Shown here: one piece after another, positions 16,340 through 26,878 of the stretch
How the letters are laid out: the number at the start of each line of letters is the position of its first letter
Numbering within the stretch: the first letter of the stretch is position 1
NCBI GenBank assembly: GCA_001724025.1
Contig: MEDJ01000004.1
Location: 1 to 64,000, forward strand
Source of the DNA: Acidobacteria bacterium SCN 69-37
GTDB lineage: Bacteria > Acidobacteriota > Vicinamibacteria > Vicinamibacterales > SCN-69-37
Length of the DNA stretch: 64,000 bases
Direction of reading: 5' to 3'
Notes under the pieces: generated by a model
What the model saw: the letters and a program-made list of their open reading frames with translations, nothing else
Told to the model about the DNA's origin: nothing
Databases searched by the model: none
Translations under genes and position numbers: made by a program

Positions 16340-17311
16340 ATGGCCTCGCGCAGGGACGTCGTCGTCGACTGGGCCGAGCAGGGCCGTCTCGCCCCGGGCG
16401 CACTGCCGCAGGCGCTCGCCGTGGCCGGCGTCACGCCGGATCGGCAGGCATGGCGTCGCTTCCTCGCCACACTGCTGCTGGGACTCGGCGTCCTGCTCCT
16501 GGCCGCCGGCGCCATCTTCTTCGTCGCCTACAACTGGCAGGCCCTCGGTCGTTTCCAGAGGTTCGCCCTCGTGCAGGGACTCCTGGCTGCTGCGGCGGCC
16601 GTGGCCTGGTGGTACGGGCCGTCACGCATGGTCGGACAGGCCGCGTTGCTGCTGGCCACGCTGCTCACCGGCGCCCTGTTCGCCCTCATCGGCCAGACGT
16701 ATCAGACCGGCGCCGACCCCTGGCAGCTCTTTGCCGTGTGGGCGCTGGTGATCGTGCCGTGGGTCGTCGTCTCGCGCATGCCCGTGCTCTGGCTGGTGCT
16801 CGCGGCGCTCGTCAATCTCTCGGTGGCACTCTGGTTCCAGACGTCTCACGGTGTGTTCGGTCTCGCCTTCTCCGGCGAAGCGCCGATCTGGGCGATCTGC
16901 GCGATCGAGGCAGCTGGTCTCATCGCCTGGGAGACGTGTGCGCGGCGGGGCGTGCCGTGGATGGCCGCGCGCTGGCCTGCACGGATCCTCGCGGTGGCCG
17001 TCGGAGTGGCCATCACCAGCCTGGCCATCATCGCGGTGATTGGCGATCCCGGGACCGGTCTGCTGCGGCTGCTGGCGTACGGCGCGTGGCTGGCCACGAT
17101 GTACGTCTGTTACCGGCGAGCCCCGCTCGATCTCTTCATGCTCGCCGGCGGTGTCTCCAGCGCCATCGTCATCGCGGCCGTTGCGCTCGGCCGGCTGGTG
17201 ATCGTCATCGGCGACGGTGGCGGGTTCCTGCTGATCGGACTCGTCGTGGTCGGCCTGTCGGCCGCGGGCGCGATGTGGCTGCGCCGGGTGGCCGCGGAGG
17301 AAGCCGAATGA
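16340..17311 (+). CDS. DUF2157 domain membrane protein
   Basis: A 323-aa polytopic protein with a short soluble N-terminus (ASRRDVVVDWAEQGRL) followed by about 9-10 hydrophobic helices. The region RRFLATLLLGLGVLLLAAGAI and NWQALGRFQRF is typical of DUF2157. Function is unknown. It heads a trio with DUF4401 and GDYXXLXY proteins that is often found together; the ATGA overlap with the next gene implies coupled translation. Start chosen at the ATG following GCGGCCGCC; an upstream in-frame extension lacks conserved sequence. Confidence 0.85.
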   Translation: MASRRDVVVDWAEQGRLAPGALPQALAVAGVTPDRQAWRRFLATLLLGLGVLLLAAGAIFFVAYNWQALGRFQRFALVQGLLAAAAAVAWWYGPSRMVGQAALLLATLLTGALFALIGQTYQTGADPWQLFAVWALVIVPWVVVSRMPVLWLVLAALVNLSVALWFQTSHGVFGLAFSGEAPIWAICAIEAAGLIAWETCARRGVPWMAARWPARILAVAVGVAITSLAIIAVIGDPGTGLLRLLAYGAWLATMYVCYRRAPLDLFMLAGGVSSAIVIAAVALGRLVIVIGDGGGFLLIGLVVVGLSAAGAMWLRRVAAEEAE

Positions 17312-18393
17312 CGACGGCGGATCGCGCGCAGTTGTGGCAGCGTCTGTGCGACGCCGGTCTCGCCGGGGGCGACATGCCGGCCGCCTCGACGATCGCCACG
17401 CCGTGGTACGTCCGGCTGATGCTCGGCCTCGCCGGCTGGATCGGCGCCTGGTTCTTCATCGGCTTCCTCGGGACGATCCTCGCGCTGGTGTTCCGCAGCG
17501 GTCTCGCGACACTCGGCATCGGCGCGCTCTGCTGCGCCGGCGCGGCCGTCGTGTTCAGGACGACGCACGACGGCGACGTCGTGCCGCAGTTCGGCCTGGC
17601 CGTCAGCCTGGCGGGACAGATTCTTGTCGTCGCCGGCCTGTTCAATCTGCTGGGCGAGCATCTCACCGCCACGCTGTACCTGCTGATCGCAGCGTTCGAG
17701 ATCGGACTCGTCGCAATCGTCGCGCACGGCATCCATCGTGCCTGGTCCACGGTGGCCGCGACCGTGGCGATGAGCCTGGCGCTCAACGAACTGGGTGCGT
17801 ACGGCGCGCACGGGCTGGCGTCCGGTCTGGCCGCTGCGACGTTCGCGGGCATCTGGCTGAACGAGCCGCGCTGGATCACGCGCGGCGCGCTGTGGCGTCC
17901 CATCGGCTACGGCGTGGCGATCGCCCTGATCTGGTTCGACGGCTTCACACTGGCCACACAGGCCATATCGTCGTTCAGCGATCGGGTGGCCGTCCCGGCG
18001 GTCCTGGCGTGGCTGGGCCGCGCGATGGCCGGCGTCGTGCTCGTCTACGCCGTCTCCCGACTGCTCGCGCCATCCAGCCTCGCCGTCTCGAATCGCACGA
18101 GACTCGCGATCCTCGCGGCGACAGGCGTCGTGGCCGTCCTCACGATCGGTGCGCCCGGCGTGGCCGTCTCGCTGTTGATCCTCGTCGTCGGGTTCGCCGG
18201 CGGACACCGGACGCTCTCGGGCCTCGGCGTCGCGTCCCTGCTCGGCTACCTGTGCTGGTTCTACTATTCGCTGCACGCCACGCTGCTGACCAAGTCGGTG
18301 GTGCTGATGACGACAGGGATGGTGCTGATTGTCGCGTGGGCCGGCCTTCGCGCGATTGCCGGCGATGCCGATCGGGAGGACGAGCATGCGTAG
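17308..18393 (+). CDS. DUF4401 domain membrane protein
   Basis: A 361-aa protein with about ten predicted membrane helices and the conserved IGAWFFIGFLG and YYSLHATLLTKS segments of DUF4401. No catalytic motif is visible. Start ATG overlaps the DUF2157 stop by 4 bases, and its stop overlaps the following gene by 8 bases, so all three products are probably made in fixed ratio and may form one membrane complex. Confidence 0.85.
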   Translation: MTTADRAQLWQRLCDAGLAGGDMPAASTIATPWYVRLMLGLAGWIGAWFFIGFLGTILALVFRSGLATLGIGALCCAGAAVVFRTTHDGDVVPQFGLAVSLAGQILVVAGLFNLLGEHLTATLYLLIAAFEIGLVAIVAHGIHRAWSTVAATVAMSLALNELGAYGAHGLASGLAAATFAGIWLNEPRWITRGALWRPIGYGVAIALIWFDGFTLATQAISSFSDRVAVPAVLAWLGRAMAGVVLVYAVSRLLAPSSLAVSNRTRLAILAATGVVAVLTIGAPGVAVSLLILVVGFAGGHRTLSGLGVASLLGYLCWFYYSLHATLLTKSVVLMTTGMVLIVAWAGLRAIAGDADREDEHA

Positions 18394-18877
18394 GCTGATC
18401 ATCGCCGCCGGTGCCGTGCTCGTGCTCGTCGTGGCCAACGTCGGCATCCATCAGCGCGAACAACTGCTCGCGACGGGACGCACGGTCCTGCTCGAACTCG
18501 CGCCCGTCGATCCCCGATCGCTGATGCAGGGCGACTACATGGCATTGCGCTTTCGTGTGGCCGACGCGGCGTTCGGTGGACGGCCCGACGAAACCCGGCG
18601 CGACGGCCGTCTGGTACTCGGTCTCGATGCGGCCGGCGTCGGCACGTTCCGGCGCTTCGACACGGGATCGGCGCTCGCACCCGACGAGGTGGCGATGCGT
18701 TACCGCATCAGGGCGAACCAGCCGACGTTCGCGACCAACGCGTTCTTCTTCCAGGAGGGCCACGCGGCCTACTATGAACACGCGCGCTACGGCGAGTTCC
18801 GCGTAGCGCCCAGCGGTGACGCGCTGCTCGTCGGCGTGCGCGGATCGCAGATGGAGCCCCTGGGACCGCCGCCATGA
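18386..18877 (+). CDS. GDYXXLXY-type membrane-anchored protein
   Basis: A 163-residue protein with one N-terminal helix (LIIAAGAVLVLVVANVGIHQ) and the name-giving motif RSLMQGDYMALRF at about residues 45-57. The rest is predicted to lie outside the membrane and contains YRIRANQPTFATNAFFFQEGH and Y-rich C-terminal segments. Function unknown; it is the regular partner of DUF2157 and DUF4401 proteins. Confidence 0.85.
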   Translation: MRRLIIAAGAVLVLVVANVGIHQREQLLATGRTVLLELAPVDPRSLMQGDYMALRFRVADAAFGGRPDETRRDGRLVLGLDAAGVGTFRRFDTGSALAPDEVAMRYRIRANQPTFATNAFFFQEGHAAYYEHARYGEFRVAPSGDALLVGVRGSQMEPLGPPP

Positions 18878-19471: not shown

Positions 19472-19846
19472 ATGCCACTGACAGCTTCTCGGATCGACGT
19501 GGTGCCCGACGCCGTGCTGGCCAAGGCGGTACTGAACGCGGCCGCGCGCCTCGGGTTGCGCCAGCGCGCCCTCGCCGCGATTCTCGGCGCCAGTGAAGCG
19601 TCAGTCTCGCGGCTGACACGGGGACGCGGAATCGATCCCGCGAGCAAGGAAGGAGAGCTGGCGCTGCTGTTCCTGCGCCTGTACCGCAGCCTCGACACGC
19701 TCGTCGGTGGCGACGACGGCCGGGCGCGGGCATGGCTCGAGGCGCCCAACGAACACCTGGGCGGCGTGCCGGCCGAACGCCTGGTCACCGTGCAGGGCCT
19801 GGTGGATGTCGTCCAATACCTGGACGGCATGCGCGGGAAGCTGTAA
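19472..19846 (+). CDS. Xre/MbcA/ParS-type antitoxin (DUF2384)
   Basis: This 124-residue protein has an N-terminal helix-turn-helix-like segment (RQRALAAILGASEASVSRLT, about residues 30-50) and a C-terminal DUF2384 toxin-binding domain (about 68-124, ending GLVDVVQYLDGMRGKL). The C-terminal tail of such antitoxins inserts into the RES active site. It is followed after 40 bp by the RES toxin gene and preceded by a perfect palindrome, the normal design for autoregulated RES-Xre modules. Start ATG 19472; an upstream TTG is in frame. Confidence 0.88.
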   Translation: MPLTASRIDVVPDAVLAKAVLNAAARLGLRQRALAAILGASEASVSRLTRGRGIDPASKEGELALLFLRLYRSLDTLVGGDDGRARAWLEAPNEHLGGVPAERLVTVQGLVDVVQYLDGMRGKL

Positions 19847-19886
19847 CACCCGACGCGGGGCAATCTGCGGACGGCTCCCCCTTGCC

Positions 19887-20639
19887 ATGTCGACGCCGCT
19901 GATTGACGACCTCCAGCGCACGAAGCTCCGCACACTCCGGCTGTCGCCCTGGCGCGTGGTCGAATCGCAGCACCACGTGTCGACGCGCAAGCTTGTCGAT
20001 TCGCTCGAAGAACAGGCCGTGCTCGAACAGCTCATCGAGACCGCCAAGCCACCCGATCCGCGGGCGGGCCGGCTGCACGTGCTGCTCTCCACGCCCTTCC
20101 GTTATCCGCCGCTGCCGCACGGATCGCGCTTCGGCACGCGACGGGAACGCAGCCTGTGGTACGGGGCGGACGAGTTGCGCACGGCGTTCGCCGAGCTTGC
20201 CTACTATCGGCTGGTCTTCCTCGAGGGCACACGCGCCGTTCTCGACGGCGTGGCCACGTGGCACACCGCGTTCACGGTGCGGGCCCGGACCGATCGCGGG
20301 CTCGACCTGACGACGGGACCGTTCAGGCCTCACAGGCAGATCCTCGCCTCGCCCACCGACTATGCGGCGACGCAGGCGCTCGGGCAGGTGATGCGGGAGC
20401 GCGCGGTGGAGGCGTTCCGCTATCCCTCGGCGCGCGATCGCCAGGGTGGCGTGAACATCGGCATCTTCACGCCAGCCGTGTTCGGTGCCGCCCGCCCGCG
20501 CGACCTGGAAGCGTGGCACTGCACGGCCACGCGATCGCGTGTCGAGTGCGTACGGCGCGACTTCTTCGACGCCATCGCCTTCACGTTCCCCCGCGAGGAC
20601 TTCCTCGTCGACGGCCGTCTCCCCACACCGGCTGTGTAA
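19887..20639 (+). CDS. RES domain toxin
   Basis: A 250-aa protein with the RES-domain order: PFRYPPLPHGSRFG (Arg72/Arg81), LWYGADELRTAFAELAYYR (Tyr92, Glu103) and a late Ser/Gly-rich SARDRQGGVNIGIF. Characterised RES toxins deplete NAD+ by phosphorolysis or hydrolysis using an ADP-ribosyltransferase-like pocket. These Arg, Tyr and Glu residues are the likely catalytic ones here, so the toxin appears intact. The ATG at 19887 leaves 40 bp after the antitoxin; longer in-frame upstream sequence is not conserved. Confidence 0.88.
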   Translation: MSTPLIDDLQRTKLRTLRLSPWRVVESQHHVSTRKLVDSLEEQAVLEQLIETAKPPDPRAGRLHVLLSTPFRYPPLPHGSRFGTRRERSLWYGADELRTAFAELAYYRLVFLEGTRAVLDGVATWHTAFTVRARTDRGLDLTTGPFRPHRQILASPTDYAATQALGQVMRERAVEAFRYPSARDRQGGVNIGIFTPAVFGAARPRDLEAWHCTATRSRVECVRRDFFDAIAFTFPREDFLVDGRLPTPAV

Positions 20640-20669: not shown

Positions 20670-22451
20670 TCACTCGACGGTGGAGGCCAGCTGGCCGAGC
20701 ATCCGGTGCAGTTCCTCGCGCGGAAACCAGCGGCCGCGCGCCATCACGCCCACGGGATCGCGCAGGTACGTGATGTCGTCGAGGGGATTGGCCTCGACGA
20801 GCAGCAGATCGGCGCGCAGGCCCGGGGCCAGCCGGCCGAACTCGTGCGGACGCTGCAGGAACCGGGCGGGCTCGACGGTGGCCGCGTACAGCACGTCGTA
20901 GGGCGTGAGTCCGCTGCCGACGAGCAGCTCGAGTTCGCGCTGCAGCGAGGCGCCCGGCGCCACGAGCGGATATCCCATGGCATCGGTACCGACCAGCAGC
21001 GTCACGCCGTGTTCGTGCAGCACTCGCGCGAGCTTCTGCATGAAGTGCCTGTAGCGCATCCGCGGCGCCGTGCCACGCAGGCGCCGCCAGCGCGCCTGGA
21101 CCTCCGGGTGCAGGTAGTCGATGGCCGGATCGGCCAGCAGCTCACGCCGGCCGACGCCGCCGAGCGCGTCGTAGGCGACCAGCGTCGTCTCGACGATCAC
21201 GCCGGCGTCGCGCAACCTGTCGGCAACGATCGCCATGCCGCGATCGCTGCTGCGCCAGATGACCGGCACCCAGAATGCGAAGGCCGCCCAGGCCAGCGCC
21301 ACGCCGGCAACCGACGCGACGACCGCCTGCACGCGCGCGGCCCGCGACGTGTCGGGCTCCGACCAGATGCGCACCATCGTATAGACGAGGGCTGTTGTCG
21401 CGCCCGCCACGCAGATGAGCATGACGGTGAACACCCACCGCAACGCGGCGCTCTCGAACGCCGGGCCGCCCGGCAGGAACAGGATCGCGCTGGCCGCGGC
21501 AATTGCGGCCGCCAGCAGCTGGAGGCCGGCCAGTTCGCGCACGCGCGACACGGCGCGCGGCGGTGACGGCAGGACGCGCCAGCGATGGACGATGGCCATC
21601 AGGCCGTTGGCGATGGCGATGGCCGTCAGGGCGCAGACCGCGAGTGCCGTGACCACGAGCCACACCGGGTAGTTCAGCATCGGCAGGAAGTAGATCGACG
21701 ACAGGCCGCCGAGGTGCGCGAGTGCCTGTCCAGCCTGGAGCACGGGCTCGAGTCCGAGATTCGCCGGCTCGTGGCCGACGAGCGGCATGCCGAGCCGCCG
21801 GGCCACGTCGTTCATGTGCAGGTAGGTCTCGAGCGACAGGCCGGTGGTCGTCAGCGATCCCAGTTCGCGCGAGTACACCTCGCGGAACTTGATCAGGTCG
21901 TAGCCGGCGGCACGCTGCGCCTCGATCTCGCGCTCCACGTCGTCGGGCGTGATGACGCGCGGTTCGTTGACGAACTCGCCCGCGGTGTAGATGGTGGGCC
22001 CGACGAGATCGCCCCGCTCGACACGCGCACGCCAGTCCAGGTGCTCGGGCAGCCCGTGCATGTTGATGACCGACGTGACGCCGTGCGCGAGGTACAGCGG
22101 CCCGTCACCGAAGTCGCTGCGTGACGTCCCGACGCGCGTGCCGTCGCCGTCGAGGTGCACGTGGCCGTCGACGAGTCCCGGCAGCAGGTATCCGCCCCGT
22201 CCGTCGATCACGCGCGCCTGTTCGGGCACGGGCACCTGCGTGCGGCTGCCCATGGCCACGATCCGGCCGTGACGCACGATGACGACCTGATCGGGCCTGA
22301 CGAGCGCGTCGTTGAACGTGAGGGTGTGGACGTTGACGAAGACCGCCTCGTCGCTCGGGGCCGCCGCCTGCGCGGCCGGCGACACGACGACACTGCCGCC
22401 CAGCAGCGCCGTCAGTACCATCGTCACGACACCGCGCCGCCTCGAAGTCAT
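20670..22451 (-). CDS. Amidohydrolase with an internal four-helix membrane insertion
   Basis: The 593-aa protein starts with a signal or anchor segment and the imidazolonepropionase-like amidohydrolase core: PGLVDGHVHLDG (His97, His99), DLIKFRE (Lys188, the carboxylated Lys position), VGHEP (His227), an AH at 246, and VGTDAMGYP near residue 503 for the catalytic Asp. Between His246 and the Asp strand, about residues 262-400 form four strongly hydrophobic helices (262-287, 307-327, 340-362, 376-399) not present in soluble homologues. The metal ligands are all kept, so a membrane-embedded periplasmic hydrolase is likely. Substrate unknown. Confidence 0.85.
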   Translation of the reverse strand: MTSRRRGVVTMVLTALLGGSVVVSPAAQAAAPSDEAVFVNVHTLTFNDALVRPDQVVIVRHGRIVAMGSRTQVPVPEQARVIDGRGGYLLPGLVDGHVHLDGDGTRVGTSRSDFGDGPLYLAHGVTSVINMHGLPEHLDWRARVERGDLVGPTIYTAGEFVNEPRVITPDDVEREIEAQRAAGYDLIKFREVYSRELGSLTTTGLSLETYLHMNDVARRLGMPLVGHEPANLGLEPVLQAGQALAHLGGLSSIYFLPMLNYPVWLVVTALAVCALTAIAIANGLMAIVHRWRVLPSPPRAVSRVRELAGLQLLAAAIAAASAILFLPGGPAFESAALRWVFTVMLICVAGATTALVYTMVRIWSEPDTSRAARVQAVVASVAGVALAWAAFAFWVPVIWRSSDRGMAIVADRLRDAGVIVETTLVAYDALGGVGRRELLADPAIDYLHPEVQARWRRLRGTAPRMRYRHFMQKLARVLHEHGVTLLVGTDAMGYPLVAPGASLQRELELLVGSGLTPYDVLYAATVEPARFLQRPHEFGRLAPGLRADLLLVEANPLDDITYLRDPVGVMARGRWFPREELHRMLGQLASTVE

Positions 22452-22652: not shown

Positions 22653-23528
22653 GTGTACCACCATCGCATCGAGTTCATCGTGAGCAGCGTCGGAGATCCG
22701 TCGAAGTCCAAATCGAGCGCGTCGAGTGCGGGAAGCCGCATGTCGAACGGGCTCGTCGCCCTGAGTTCCGCCGTCGTGCTGGCCGTGTATTCAACCGGCT
22801 ACCTCCGCACGCAGGCGGCTGCCGATCGGTTCGCTGCCGACACCGATCAGCGGCGACAGGTCGCACCGGCGGCCATCGAGGCCCGCGTCCCGGCAGCCCC
22901 GGCCGTGTCCGGCGCGGCACCGGCACCGCCCGTCGCGCCGGCTGACACCGCACCGGCTCCCGCATCGGCGGCACCCGCACCGCCACACGCGGCACCGCCG
23001 GTGACGGCAGCCCTGCCACCAGCGGCGACGTCTACCGGCGCCACGGCCATGGTGCCGGCCGCAGCCACGTCCCCGGACACGCCGCGCGCTTCGGCGGCCC
23101 CGGCCCCCATCGCGAACGTCGCAACGGCGCCGTCCGTCGTCCTCGATTCCGCCGTGGCCTCGCCTGCGACCCCGACAACGACGGTCGCCGCATCGACAAC
23201 GACAGCCGCGCTGACGACGCCGACGCCTGCAGCACTCGAGGCTGCGACGCCTGCCGGACCGGCCTACAAGGACGGCACTTACACGGGCTGGGGCACGAGC
23301 CGACACGGCGACATCGAGGCCGAGGTCATCATTGCCGACGGCCGCATCACGTCGGCCACGATCGCGCAGTGCTTCATGCGCTGGCCGTGCTCGTGGATCG
23401 AGAAGCTGCCGCCGCAGGTCGTGGAGCGCCAGAGCGCGGAAACCGACTTCGTCTCCGGCGCCACGCAGAGCACGAACGCCTTCTACTACGCCGTCGTCCA
23501 GGCGCTGGGCAAAGCCGCCCTGCCGTGA
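22653..23528 (+). CDS. Membrane-anchored FMN-binding domain protein
   Basis: An N-terminal helix (SNGLVALSSAVVLAVYSTGYL) is followed by about 140 residues rich in Ala, Pro and Thr, a flexible linker, and then an FMN_bind domain starting at YKDGTYTGWG. The flavinylation motif SGATQS (Thr271) near the C-terminus is intact, so FMN should be linked covalently to that Thr by ApbE, encoded next. It would carry electrons outside the membrane. The GTG start lacks a good ribosome site; the ATG at 22740, just before the helix, is an equally plausible start. The 200 bp upstream show no gene. Confidence 0.85.
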   Translation: MYHHRIEFIVSSVGDPSKSKSSASSAGSRMSNGLVALSSAVVLAVYSTGYLRTQAAADRFAADTDQRRQVAPAAIEARVPAAPAVSGAAPAPPVAPADTAPAPASAAPAPPHAAPPVTAALPPAATSTGATAMVPAAATSPDTPRASAAPAPIANVATAPSVVLDSAVASPATPTTTVAASTTTAALTTPTPAALEAATPAGPAYKDGTYTGWGTSRHGDIEAEVIIADGRITSATIAQCFMRWPCSWIEKLPPQVVERQSAETDFVSGATQSTNAFYYAVVQALGKAALP

Positions 23529-24445
23529 TCCGCCGATCCGAGGCGATGATGGGCACGATCGTGACGATCGACGTGCCGGTCACGCCTGCGCGTCCAGACG
23601 ACGACACACTCGAGGCGGCGCACGTCGATCGCGCCTTCGCCTGGTTCCGCGAAGTCGAACAGGCCTGCTCGCGCTTCGATCCCGCCAGCGAACTGCTCGC
23701 GCTCTGCCGGCGTCCCGGAGAGCGCCGTCACGTCAGCCCGCTGCTGTTCGAAGCCGTGCGATTCGCGCTGGCCGTCGCGGCCGACACCGACGGCGCGTTC
23801 GATCCGACCGTCGGGTACCGGCTGGAACGGATGGGCTTCGATCGCGCGTATCGATCCGGCCAGACCGTCACGACGCTTACGGCAGACACGACAGCTACCT
23901 GGCGCGACGTCGATCTCGATCCGACCGACGGCACCATCACGCTTCGAAAGCCGCTCGTGCTCGATCTGGGCAGCGTGGCGAAGGGCTTGGCGATCGATCT
24001 CGCGGCGCGCGAACTGCGGCCGCTCGTGGATTTCGGGATCGACGCCGGCGGCGATCTCTTCCTCGGCGGCCACCGGCCCGACGGCCGCGACTGGTCGGTC
24101 GGCATCAGGCACCCGTATCGCGATGACGTCCTGCTCGGGACCGTACGGGCCACCAGCGAGGCCGTGTGCACGTCGGGGCAGTACGAAAGGCAACGCGATC
24201 ACCACGGCCGGCCGCACATCGTCGATCCGCGCGGCGCGGGGACGTGCGACAGCCTGGTCAGCGTCACGGTCATCGCCCCCACGGCGATGCTCGCCGATGC
24301 GCTGGCCACGGCGGTCTTCGTCCTCGGCCCGATCGCCGGCCGGCAGCTGCTCGACCGCATGGGGCTCTGCGGCGTGCTCTGTACCTCGACCCTCGACTGC
24401 ATCGTGACGCAAGGATGTGGCAGTGACCGAATCTCGATCCCGTAG
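23525..24445 (+). CDS. apbE: FAD:protein FMN transferase
   Basis: A 306-aa ApbE-family protein: AMMGTIVTIDVPV, ACSRFDPASELLAL, DGAFDPTVGYRL, LDLGSVAKGLAIDLAA, FGIDAGGDLFLGG and the late TAMLADALATAVFVLG with the metal-binding Asp. The enzyme splits FAD and attaches FMN to Thr in a (S/D)GAT motif, which occurs in the preceding gene product. No signal peptide is obvious, so the cellular side is unclear. The GTG start overlaps the upstream stop (GTGA); an ATG follows at 23546. Confidence 0.92.
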   Translation: MIRRSEAMMGTIVTIDVPVTPARPDDDTLEAAHVDRAFAWFREVEQACSRFDPASELLALCRRPGERRHVSPLLFEAVRFALAVAADTDGAFDPTVGYRLERMGFDRAYRSGQTVTTLTADTTATWRDVDLDPTDGTITLRKPLVLDLGSVAKGLAIDLAARELRPLVDFGIDAGGDLFLGGHRPDGRDWSVGIRHPYRDDVLLGTVRATSEAVCTSGQYERQRDHHGRPHIVDPRGAGTCDSLVSVTVIAPTAMLADALATAVFVLGPIAGRQLLDRMGLCGVLCTSTLDCIVTQGCGSDRISIP

Positions 24446-25286
24446 CGGCAGCCGCGCCGTTCGCCGCTTCGTGCGGACCCCGAAGGGCCTGATGACCCTC
24501 GGCCTCGTACTGCTGATTGCCGTGGCGGCCGCGTACCTCGATCCCGCCCGCCTCTGGCCGCCCCTCGTCGCGGCGGCGCTGGCGGCCGCGGCCATCGATG
24601 CGCCGCTGCTGCGCGCGCGGCACGGCCGCTGGCAGTTCCCCGACGGCGCCATCCTCACGGGCCTGTTCGTGGCGATGGTGCTCAGTCCGTTCGAGCCCTG
24701 GTACGTGGCGGCCACGACGGCGGCCGTGGGCATTCTCGGCAAGCACCTGGCTCGCGGACGCACGGCCAACGTCTTCAACCCGGCGGCGCTCGGCCTCGTC
24801 GTCACCTACTACGCCATCGGCACCGGCCACGACTGGTGGGGTGCGCTGGCCGACGCGGGCGTCGTCGGCCTCGTCGCGCTGTTCGCCACCGGCATCTTCA
24901 TCGCCGATCGGGTGAACAAGATGCCGCTGGTGCTCGCGTTCCTCGCCAGCTACTTCCTGCTGTTCACCGTGATGGCGTTCGTGGACGAACCGCGTCGCGT
25001 GGCGGAGATCTTCCGCGCGCCCGACGTGAACGCGGTGCTGTTCTTCGCGTGCTTCATCCTGACCGATCCGCCGACGTCGCCGGTGAAGGCCCGCGACCAG
25101 ATCGCGTGCGGCGTCATCGTCGCCCTGGCGAGTTTTGCCGTGTTCGAGTTGACCGGTGCCGTGCACTACCTGTTGTCTGGTGTGCTCATCGGAAACGCGT
25201 GGGAGGCGTGGCGTCGCCGCCAGGCGTACGTCCATCGCCAGACGACACGCACCGCAGGCGCGCAGGCGGCACGCGCCACGACCTGA
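24417..25286 (+). CDS. NqrB/RnfD-like membrane subunit
   Basis: A 289-aa protein with about eight helices and conserved NVFNPAALGLV and CFILTDPPTSPVK segments of the NQR2/RnfD/RnfE family. The SGAT-type flavinylation site found in canonical NqrB and RnfD is not seen, so its flavin, if any, must be bound otherwise. It overlaps apbE by 29 bp (or 23 bp if the GTG at 24423, behind AAGGA, is used). With the FMN-binding protein and ApbE it probably forms a reduced transmembrane electron conduit. Confidence 0.85.
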   Translation: MAVTESRSRSGSRAVRRFVRTPKGLMTLGLVLLIAVAAAYLDPARLWPPLVAAALAAAAIDAPLLRARHGRWQFPDGAILTGLFVAMVLSPFEPWYVAATTAAVGILGKHLARGRTANVFNPAALGLVVTYYAIGTGHDWWGALADAGVVGLVALFATGIFIADRVNKMPLVLAFLASYFLLFTVMAFVDEPRRVAEIFRAPDVNAVLFFACFILTDPPTSPVKARDQIACGVIVALASFAVFELTGAVHYLLSGVLIGNAWEAWRRRQAYVHRQTTRTAGAQAARATT

Positions 25287-25328: not shown

Positions 25329-25985
25329 TCAGTCGACGCGGGCGACGGCCGCGGACCGATCCGACATGAAGAGCAGGCGCTGCACCTGCGGTTCGATCAG
25401 CGCGGCCAGTTCGAATGCCTGGGCGGCCGCGCGCACCTCACCCTCGGGATCCCGCGCGATCGGGACGGTCACGCGCACGAGTGCGGCGTCGTTGCGACGT
25501 GCGCGCAGCGTATCGATCACGGCGTGCAGACGGGCGCGGTATTCCTCGCCCTCGATTCGCGCCTGTGTCTGATACCAATACACGACCAGCAGCCGTTCGC
25601 GACCTTTGCGGATGATCACGCGGCGCACGTATCCGTCGCCGAACGCGACGCGCTCGACGAGATCCATCGTCCAGCCGGAGCCGGGCATGCAGTTGAGCGG
25701 CGAATGAATCGCGGCGCCCTGGTGCTGCGACCGGTGATAGCCGACGTACACGTTCGCCTGGCGCGCTGCGTCGAGGGCATAGGCCCTGTTGATGTAGTCG
25801 TCGACGCCGAGTGCTGACACCACGTCGGACGTGAAGGCCGCGCCCGGGCGGCCGTGCCAGGCCCCGACAGTGAATGGCACGTCCTCGAGCGGAGCCACCT
25901 CGATGACGGGCGTGGCCTCGGTCTGCCACCGGACGAGCCCGGCAATCGCCACCAGTCCGATGAGCACCAGCAATCGGCGGGTCAC
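25329..25985 (-). CDS. EpsI domain protein (exosortase-associated)
   Basis: A 218-aa protein with one N-terminal helix (LLVLIGLVAIAGLV) and the EpsI core: VGAWHG, YRSQHQG-type strand, AAIHSPLNCMPGSGW and RLLVVYWYQTQ. EpsI proteins are encoded with, or fused to, exosortases and support polysaccharide export or protein sorting. The GTG at 25985 overlaps the exosortase stop (GTGA). Confidence 0.87.
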   Translation of the reverse strand: MTRRLLVLIGLVAIAGLVRWQTEATPVIEVAPLEDVPFTVGAWHGRPGAAFTSDVVSALGVDDYINRAYALDAARQANVYVGYHRSQHQGAAIHSPLNCMPGSGWTMDLVERVAFGDGYVRRVIIRKGRERLLVVYWYQTQARIEGEEYRARLHAVIDTLRARRNDAALVRVTVPIARDPEGEVRAAAQAFELAALIEPQVQRLLFMSDRSAAVARVD

Positions 25986-26878
25986 ACCGGCTCCCCGGCG
26001 ACTGCCCCGGCCCGCCCGCCGGGCCACGCCGACGAGGCGCGATCGACAGCCGCAATCAACAGCAGTGCCGTGCCGAAGAAGATCCAGCCGGCCACCGCGT
26101 GCAGCGGCCCCAGCGCCGCGTCTGCGCCGAACCGGTGCGCCACCAGTCCCGAGGCGGCCACGCGGAGGCCATTGGCCACGATGACCGCCGGCAAGACGGA
26201 TATCAGCACCAGCGATCGCGCCGCCAGGGACGGTCGCGCAAGATAGCCGTACACGAGCGCCAGTGTGCCGAGCGACATCAGGGACCTGACGCCGCTGCAC
26301 GCCTCGGCCACCTCGAGCGTGGCCTGCGGCAGGTAGATGACGTTCCCCTCGCGAATCGCCGGCACCTGCGCAAGATCGAGCAGGCCGACACCGAGACGGC
26401 TGGCCACCAACTGCAGCGGCAGCGCGATCTCGTTGAAGATGAGAGCCGGCAGCGGAATGGCCAGCGCGACGAGCACGAACGGGAACGCGCACGCGCGCAG
26501 GTGACGCCAGCCGAACAGGTAGACGAGGGCGCCGGCCATCACGACCAGCAGCGACACACGCGTGAGGAAGAACTCGAACGCCGTCTGCCCGAGCAGGTAG
26601 AGCAGCAGACCGGCGGCGACCATCCAGGCGCCGAACGCCGACGGGCGGACCGGCAGGTCCCGCAGGCGATCGCGACGCTGCCAGACGAGCCAGGCCACGA
26701 ACGGCGGCACGAGGATGCCGTGAGCGTAGTTGTCGTCAGTGATCCAGTCCGAGGCCAGACCGACGAGCGTGGGGCCGTAGAGCCCCAGCAGCCCGATCAC
26801 GAACACTACGCACGGCCAGCGGCGAACCGGATCGACCGGCCCGTCGCCGCCGGAGATCGCCCCGTCGCAGGCACGCAT
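25982..26878 (-). CDS. Exosortase (PEP-CTERM sorting protease)
   Basis: A 298-aa polytopic protein with about eight helices and the exosortase catalytic set: Cys194 in EACSGVRSL, Arg239 in ANGLRV, and His260 in GPLHAVAGW. It would cleave the C-terminal PEP-CTERM signal of exported proteins at the inner membrane. A matching substrate gene lies immediately upstream (VPEPSTL), and EpsI follows. The variety cannot be named from sequence alone. ATG at 26878; an upstream extension is not conserved. Confidence 0.9.
   Translation of the reverse strand: MRACDGAISGGDGPVDPVRRWPCVVFVIGLLGLYGPTLVGLASDWITDDNYAHGILVPPFVAWLVWQRRDRLRDLPVRPSAFGAWMVAAGLLLYLLGQTAFEFFLTRVSLLVVMAGALVYLFGWRHLRACAFPFVLVALAIPLPALIFNEIALPLQLVASRLGVGLLDLAQVPAIREGNVIYLPQATLEVAEACSGVRSLMSLGTLALVYGYLARPSLAARSLVLISVLPAVIVANGLRVAASGLVAHRFGADAALGPLHAVAGWIFFGTALLLIAAVDRASSAWPGGRAGAVAGEPV

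Follow-up and report, generated by a model that had tools for sequence, protein, structure and literature searches.

A putative periplasmic amidohydrolase from Vicinamibacteria with a four-helix membrane domain inserted into its catalytic barrel

A gene of Acidobacteria bacterium SCN 69-37 is predicted to encode an exported, metal-dependent amidohydrolase whose catalytic barrel is interrupted by a domain of four transmembrane (TM) helices. The gene lies in the first 64,000 nucleotides of contig MEDJ01000004.1, the whole stretch of DNA that was analyzed and is referred to here as the window, and its features are collected in Table 1. The interpretation adopted here, to which we give about an even chance of being right, is that the protein is a periplasmic enzyme of the COG1228/M38 kind held at the inner membrane, with the mouth of its active site at the membrane, where it would hydrolyze an amphipathic or membrane-partitioned amide or peptide. 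The amidohydrolases form a very large superfamily and, to our knowledge, are regarded as soluble. A search of the open-access literature, a body of work that lacks most subscription journals, returned no paper on a membrane-inserted amidohydrolase, and a membrane module at this position of the barrel appears to be undescribed in that literature.

Table 1. Predicted features of the amidohydrolase gene and of its surroundings (positions in the window; residues numbered from the start codon)
Feature	Position	Strand	Basis
Whole gene, periplasmic amidohydrolase with four-TM insert, 593 aa	20670..22451	-	intact ORF; PF01979, E 3.2e-21
Signal peptide, residues 1-30, ending SPAAQA before A	22362..22451	-	charged n-region and hydrophobic core
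Small beta domain plus TIM-barrel strands 1-6, residues 33-253	21693..22355	-	AlphaFold2, PDB fold matches
Metal ligands H97-x-H99, strand 1	22155..22163	-	invariant in all covering rows, with or without insert
K188, expected carboxylated bridging lysine, strand 4	21888..21890	-	alignment
Metal ligand H227, strand 5	21771..21773	-	invariant (alignment)
Metal ligand H246 (LAHL), strand 6, followed by the insert	21714..21716	-	invariant (alignment)
Membrane insert, beta6-alpha6 loop, residues 253-402	21246..21695	-	alignment with 20 insert-free relatives; seven genomes
TM1, residues 262-292	21576..21668	-	hydropathy, AlphaFold2
TM2, residues 299-325	21477..21557	-	hydropathy, AlphaFold2
TM3, residues 335-364	21360..21449	-	hydropathy, AlphaFold2
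TM4, residues 370-400	21252..21344	-	hydropathy, AlphaFold2
Catalytic/metal Asp D490 (GTDA), strand 8	20982..20984	-	alignment
Rest of the barrel (helix 6, strands 7-8, C-terminal part), residues 403-593	20673..21245	-	PF01979 at 463-575; fold matches
DUF2157, DUF4401 and GDYXXLXY membrane/periplasmic proteins in a row	16340-18877	+	
Xre/MbcA/ParS antitoxin (PF09722) and RES-domain toxin (PF08808) pair, convergent with the amidohydrolase gene	19472-20639	+	
FMN-binding protein (FMN_bind), ApbE flavin transferase and NQR2/RnfD-like membrane protein in a row	22653-25286	+	
Exosortase EpsH beside DUF3485 (EpsI-like)	25329-26806	-	

The open reading frame runs from an ATG at 22451 to 20670 with zero internal stops, intact and at the coordinates given by an earlier note on this DNA. 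Its match to the Pfam profile Amidohydro_1 (PF01979; 76.4 bits against a gathering score of 25) falls into two stretches, of which the one at residues 463-575 is the best, as expected if the family is interrupted in the middle of the sequence. The predicted signal peptide has a positively charged n-region and a hydrophobic core at residues 8-26 by hydropathy, and those of the homologues end in ASAQ or ALAQ at the matching position. Alignment with 20 relatives indicates a complete predicted metal site (H97, H99, K188, H227, H246 and D490), and these putative ligands, HxH, K, H, H, and D at the ends of strands 1, 4, 5, 6, and 8, are of the amidohydrolase superfamily type. K188 is kept in all covering rows except for one insert-free paralogue with a glycine, and D490 in every covering row save that of the most distant relative (L061). 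The earlier note had already recognized His97/His99 (HVH), Lys188, His227, and the Asp of the GTD motif, all of which are present, and had missed the further ligand H246.

That note had also described the protein as imidazolonepropionase-like. Its assignment to the amidohydrolases stands; the protein is not close to imidazolonepropionase itself (HutI, TIGR01224), scoring 58.7 bits against an equivalog cut-off of 298.15. The best-scoring family is the Xaa-Pro dipeptidase NF051886, with 91.7 bits, yet this is also below the equivalog cut-off, which is 500. By both fold and sequence, the closest solved structures are peptidases of COG1228 and MEROPS M38 (the Cc2672 group), among them 3mtw, the L-Lys/L-Arg carboxypeptidase Cc2672, and 3be7 and 3dug, both Zn-dependent arginine carboxypeptidase. 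These enzymes, together with the Xaa-Pro dipeptidase-like 2qs8, the prolidase-like 2p9b, and 3n2c, have the same barrel, the same positions of the metal ligands, the same C-terminal GTD motif, and the same beta-domain arrangement as the present protein. However, their structures are those of soluble proteins, about 400 residues long, that lack a segment of this kind, whereas this one is predicted to be exported and to carry a 150-residue, four-TM insert in the beta6-alpha6 loop. The amidohydrolase superfamily is catalytically diverse, and sequence alone does not fix the substrate. A different catalysis within it, for example that of an esterase or a lactonase, could thus be performed by the same membrane-docked barrel; we consider this improbable, since the disparate specificities of the superfamily speak for it but the closest solved relatives cleave amide or peptide bonds. 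Related soluble enzymes take dipeptides as well as N-acyl amino acids as substrates (PMC11342369, PMC11511702).

The four helices that the earlier note had placed between its last named His and the Asp strand are found at residues 262-400 by both hydropathy and structure prediction. Besides the signal peptide, the only hydropathy peaks of the protein are four stretches at residues 263-281, 307-325, 340-358, and 377-395, with mean Kyte-Doolittle values of 1.95-2.54 (19-residue window). This four-peak profile and its pattern of charges recur in all seven insert-bearing homologues and are therefore not due to chance. An AlphaFold2 model built on 11 sequences (mean pLDDT 72, pTM 0.75) likewise contains four long helices, at 262-292, 299-325, 335-364, and 370-400, which do not form a buried globular core; several loops of the active site (100-119, 157-164, and 193-199) are modeled with low confidence, at a pLDDT below 50. 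The closest fold matches to the model are 9kov (Z 34.6, 341 residues at 2.9 A), 3mtw (Z 34.1), 3be7 (Z 33.6), and 2p9b (Z 33.4). They span 341-362 residues, from residue 33 or 34 to residues 579-593, and since they run across both sides of the insert, the barrel closes around it in the model. An amidohydrolase-type (beta/alpha)8 barrel with a membrane domain emerging from it is thus supported by the prediction, and the proposal of the earlier note that such a domain splits the barrel agrees with the model, the fold matches, and the alignment with insert-free relatives.

In that alignment, the insert begins about 7 residues past H246, between strand 6 and helix 6, and is followed downstream by helix 6 (SDRGMAIVADRLRDAG) and then strand 7. 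The spacing from H246 to strand 7 is 154-176 residues in proteins with the insert versus 29-52 in those without it. The loops that follow the strands of amidohydrolase barrels sit on the C-terminal face, the site of metal and substrate binding, so that an insert in the loop after strand 6 is expected to emerge at the mouth of the active site. Among the seven proteins, Lys and Arg residues number 1-8 in the TM1-TM2 loop (5-8 in six of them) and 2-5 in the TM3-TM4 loop, with a single one in the TM2-TM3 loop. From the signal peptide and this positive-inside charge pattern, following established rules, we infer that the barrel with its active site is periplasmic, as is the TM2-TM3 loop, and that the TM1-TM2 and TM3-TM4 loops are cytoplasmic.

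The insertion is found at the same place in six further genomes (G001, G131, G133, G072, G092, and G122), in proteins with 49-65% identity; in G001, a congener, the gene is split over two contig ends. These six correspond to Acidobacteria MAGs of the same order, several of them labelled gp6, which we take to be the class Vicinamibacteria. Together with the present genome they amount to 7 of the 162 genomes of the order, spread over three families. No further insert-bearing protein was found in 193 genomes of the class, where the extra match, G521, is a serine hydrolase, or in a spread sample of 396 genomes of the phylum. Two conserved patterns searched against 84,980 species (one genome each), an approach that would miss divergent relatives, recovered no insert-bearing relatives other than these. 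A genome contig scan with a single protein query gave no match, and an alignment-based scan did recover relatives. No relative was present in viral contigs, and plasmid records contained no place covering 80% of the query; in their best places, the gap between the two matching halves is too short to hold the insert.

The 20 related enzymes without the insert help to trace its origin. In a tree computed after removal of the insert columns, the insert-bearing proteins form one clade (support 100/99), the sister of which is the insert-free protein L059 from a Gemmatimonadetes MAG (92/88). With a single clade of insert-bearing proteins and 20 insert-free relatives, one gain is the simplest history, and the insert was most likely acquired once. 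The insert-free paralogues of the order and L059 have the same metal site as the present protein, a hydrophobic N-terminal export signal in most cases, and 30-42% identity on both flanks of the insert; L059 additionally shares an F-x-NEPR motif. One such paralogue, 39% and 36% identical on the two flanks, is encoded in the same genome (contig C3, L035:2310-3638).

For four of five pairs of homologues, the dN/dS of the insert is about 0.29-0.36, with synonymous sites partly saturated, which indicates constraint, and purifying selection seems to act on the insert in these pairs. The fifth pair, G072 and G092, reaches 1.26. The genes of these two genomes (L054:7812-9554 and L055:7400-9521), which are mutually closest, have N-terminal lesions that differ between the two and affect the small beta domain; they are possibly decaying copies. 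The damaged N-termini and the relaxed constraint on the insert suggest that some lineages may be able to do without the gene. These lesions are also what could be cited for a frameshift, mis-assembly, or fusion as the source of the apparent membrane segment, an artefact that the earlier note had considered; nothing in the window points to it. The same insert occurs, however, at the same position and in an open frame in seven genomes, including assemblies independently made by others, and both the purifying selection in four of five pairs and the alignable insert-free paralogues speak against an artefact. This explanation is refuted by the insert-bearing relatives, and we give it practically no credence.

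Searches of Pfam and the PDB with the insert alone gave no convincing match. In a fold search with it, all matches were helical bundles of a generic kind (Z up to 10), for the most part from soluble proteins, a result that is neutral as to whether the insert has a known fold. Within the class, the insert has a single match outside its family (G521, E 1.7e-4), corresponding to the C-terminal four-TM domain of a PF00144 serine hydrolase. Matches of this strength also arise by chance in TM sequences, as with SecF, and for this reason the link to S12 hydrolases was put to the test. With the insert profile, the genomes of the order also yield SecF-like matches (L069-L071; 18-24 bits), which were read as TM similarity arising by chance and set aside. 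Compared by hhalign with 11 S12 four-TM domains, the insert reaches 90.7% with a score of 43.3 and a single-comparison E of 1.3e-6. None of 400 shuffles, in which columns were permuted solely inside each TM or loop segment, attained this score (best 32.8, mean 15); column rotations were dropped as a null because they retain the local match. Single S12 domains score 30.0, 24.2, 22.1, and 21.6, against a best single-sequence score of 17.1 among 37 unrelated membrane proteins of this genome (Mann-Whitney p 1.5e-4), and hhalign with another alignment, built from nine S12 domains, reaches 78.4%. When the S12 profile was used in a genome search of the relatives, the insert was not singled out, and tblastn of the S12 TM module against plasmids found no match. 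Taken together, the profile comparisons make it probable that the insert is a remote relative of the S12 C-terminal four-TM domain, by descent or common ancestry.

The S12 (beta-lactamase family) hydrolases L093, L095, L098, and L099 are, like the present protein, periplasmic and carry a four-TM module of the same length, with similar motifs (RVW-R...R......A..FxW). In contrast, their catalytic domain is PF00144, and the module is C-terminal and lies outside the catalytic fold. In a wider set of Acidobacteria S12 serine hydrolases (L093:3405-5444, L095, L096, and L098-L104), this C-terminal domain ends in (Y)WN(x)LG; none of the five such proteins checked against Pfam has a model for it, nor does the one checked against NCBIfam. 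In the S12 periplasmic peptidase ClbP, a prodrug-activating membrane enzyme, the TM domain prolongs the cleft that receives the substrate and makes contact with the acyl group (PMC9889268). ClbP thus offers a likeness in working: it is a periplasmic hydrolase, and its TM domain lies next to the active site, where it binds the acyl portion of the amide substrate. It differs from the present protein in being a serine hydrolase with three TM helices at the C terminus, whereas the catalytic domain here is PF01979 and not PF00144. No homology between the TM domain of ClbP and the insert was found in PDB searches with the insert and with the S12 module, the latter giving no match at all, ClbP included. 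A tentative proposal, which we rate at clearly less than an even chance, is that a loop on the catalytic face of an M38-type amidohydrolase took up, on a single occasion, a mobile four-helix module that S12 serine hydrolases also use. The module would then have joined the substrate site of the enzyme, yielding a membrane-embedded metallo-amidase for lipidated amides at the outer leaflet of the inner membrane, an amidohydrolase counterpart of ClbP.

The conservation of the insert bears on whether it does more than hold the enzyme at the membrane. Of its 24 invariant positions, 18 fall within the 38 positions of the periplasmic edge, that is, the entry, the TM2-TM3 loop, and the exit of the insert (Fisher p 1.5e-8, a value to be taken as indicative since the borders of these regions were drawn after the topology was seen). 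They are Y254, L256, and P257 at the entry, L324, P327, G328, G329, F332, S334, L337, and R338 around the TM2-TM3 loop, and F393, W394, P396, W399, R400, S401, and G405 at the exit. The other six are W363 and R373 on the cytoplasmic side and L275, A376, S380, and A382 in the membrane cores. This clustering at the periplasmic edge is the main reason that argues for the insert taking part in the active site or its docking, rather than being a mere anchor, although it could also reflect packing of the barrel on the membrane module instead of substrate binding.

The insert might, on the other hand, simply tether an ordinary periplasmic amidohydrolase of the dipeptidase or carboxypeptidase kind that acts on soluble peptides or amides. 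This possibility is a serious one, with about a third of the probability, as the nearest solved relatives are soluble peptidases, the probably related four-TM domain at the C terminus of S12 proteins may be a plain anchor, and in most pairs the insert shows faster sequence evolution than the barrel. Nevertheless, an uncleaved signal peptide or a terminal helix would be an easier tether, while the insert interrupts the catalytic face and its invariant residues cluster at the periplasmic rim beside the active site.

A sensor or transport-coupled function, in which periplasmic binding or hydrolysis at the metal site would shift the helices and thereby signal or move a solute, is very unlikely. 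The invariant W363 and R373 on the cytoplasmic side could fit such a role, but none of the invariant residues in the membrane cores is charged or strongly polar, which speaks against transport, and there is neither a cytoplasmic domain nor a conserved neighboring gene. The coupling of hydrolysis to transport suggested by the earlier note thus finds no backing, four helices without partner genes making a poor transporter.

The neighborhoods of the homologues contain no conserved partner gene and share genes only in part with that of the congener. As they differ among homologues, the gene would act as a single unit, and its context gives no clue to the substrate. In the window itself, the adjacent set of FMN-binding protein, ApbE, and NQR2/RnfD-like protein resembles a small flavin-based unit for electron transfer that has only one Rnf/Nqr-type membrane subunit, and Rfam gave no match at 18-26 kb.

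For the membrane-docked amide or peptide hydrolase proposed at the outset, the following mode of action can be envisaged. The protein would be exported by Sec, with the barrel folding in the periplasm and the module in the inner membrane, which the chain would enter four times before returning to complete the barrel. Because these four passes start from a loop of the catalytic face, the mouth should face the outer leaflet of the inner membrane. Y254, together with the PGGxxF motif (327-332) and the FWxPxxWRS motif (393-401), might then make up the rim of the substrate site. A substrate arriving from the membrane would have its amide or peptide bond attacked by the metal-activated water, with N-acyl amino acids, lipopeptides, or membrane-bound peptides as conceivable candidates. 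The membrane module probably docks the enzyme and in this way gives access to greasy or membrane-bound substrates. The lipid-embedded substrate imagined in the earlier note is accordingly plausible, with indirect support from the catalytic-face position of the insert and the conservation of its periplasmic interface.

If this proposal is true, the protein would represent a route by which a TIM-barrel enzyme can reach lipid-embedded substrates, and would suggest that small membrane modules can pass between unrelated families of periplasmic hydrolases. Domain searches now list such enzymes merely as PF01979 proteins, and a TM insertion in the beta6-alpha6 loop would serve as a practical marker for finding them.
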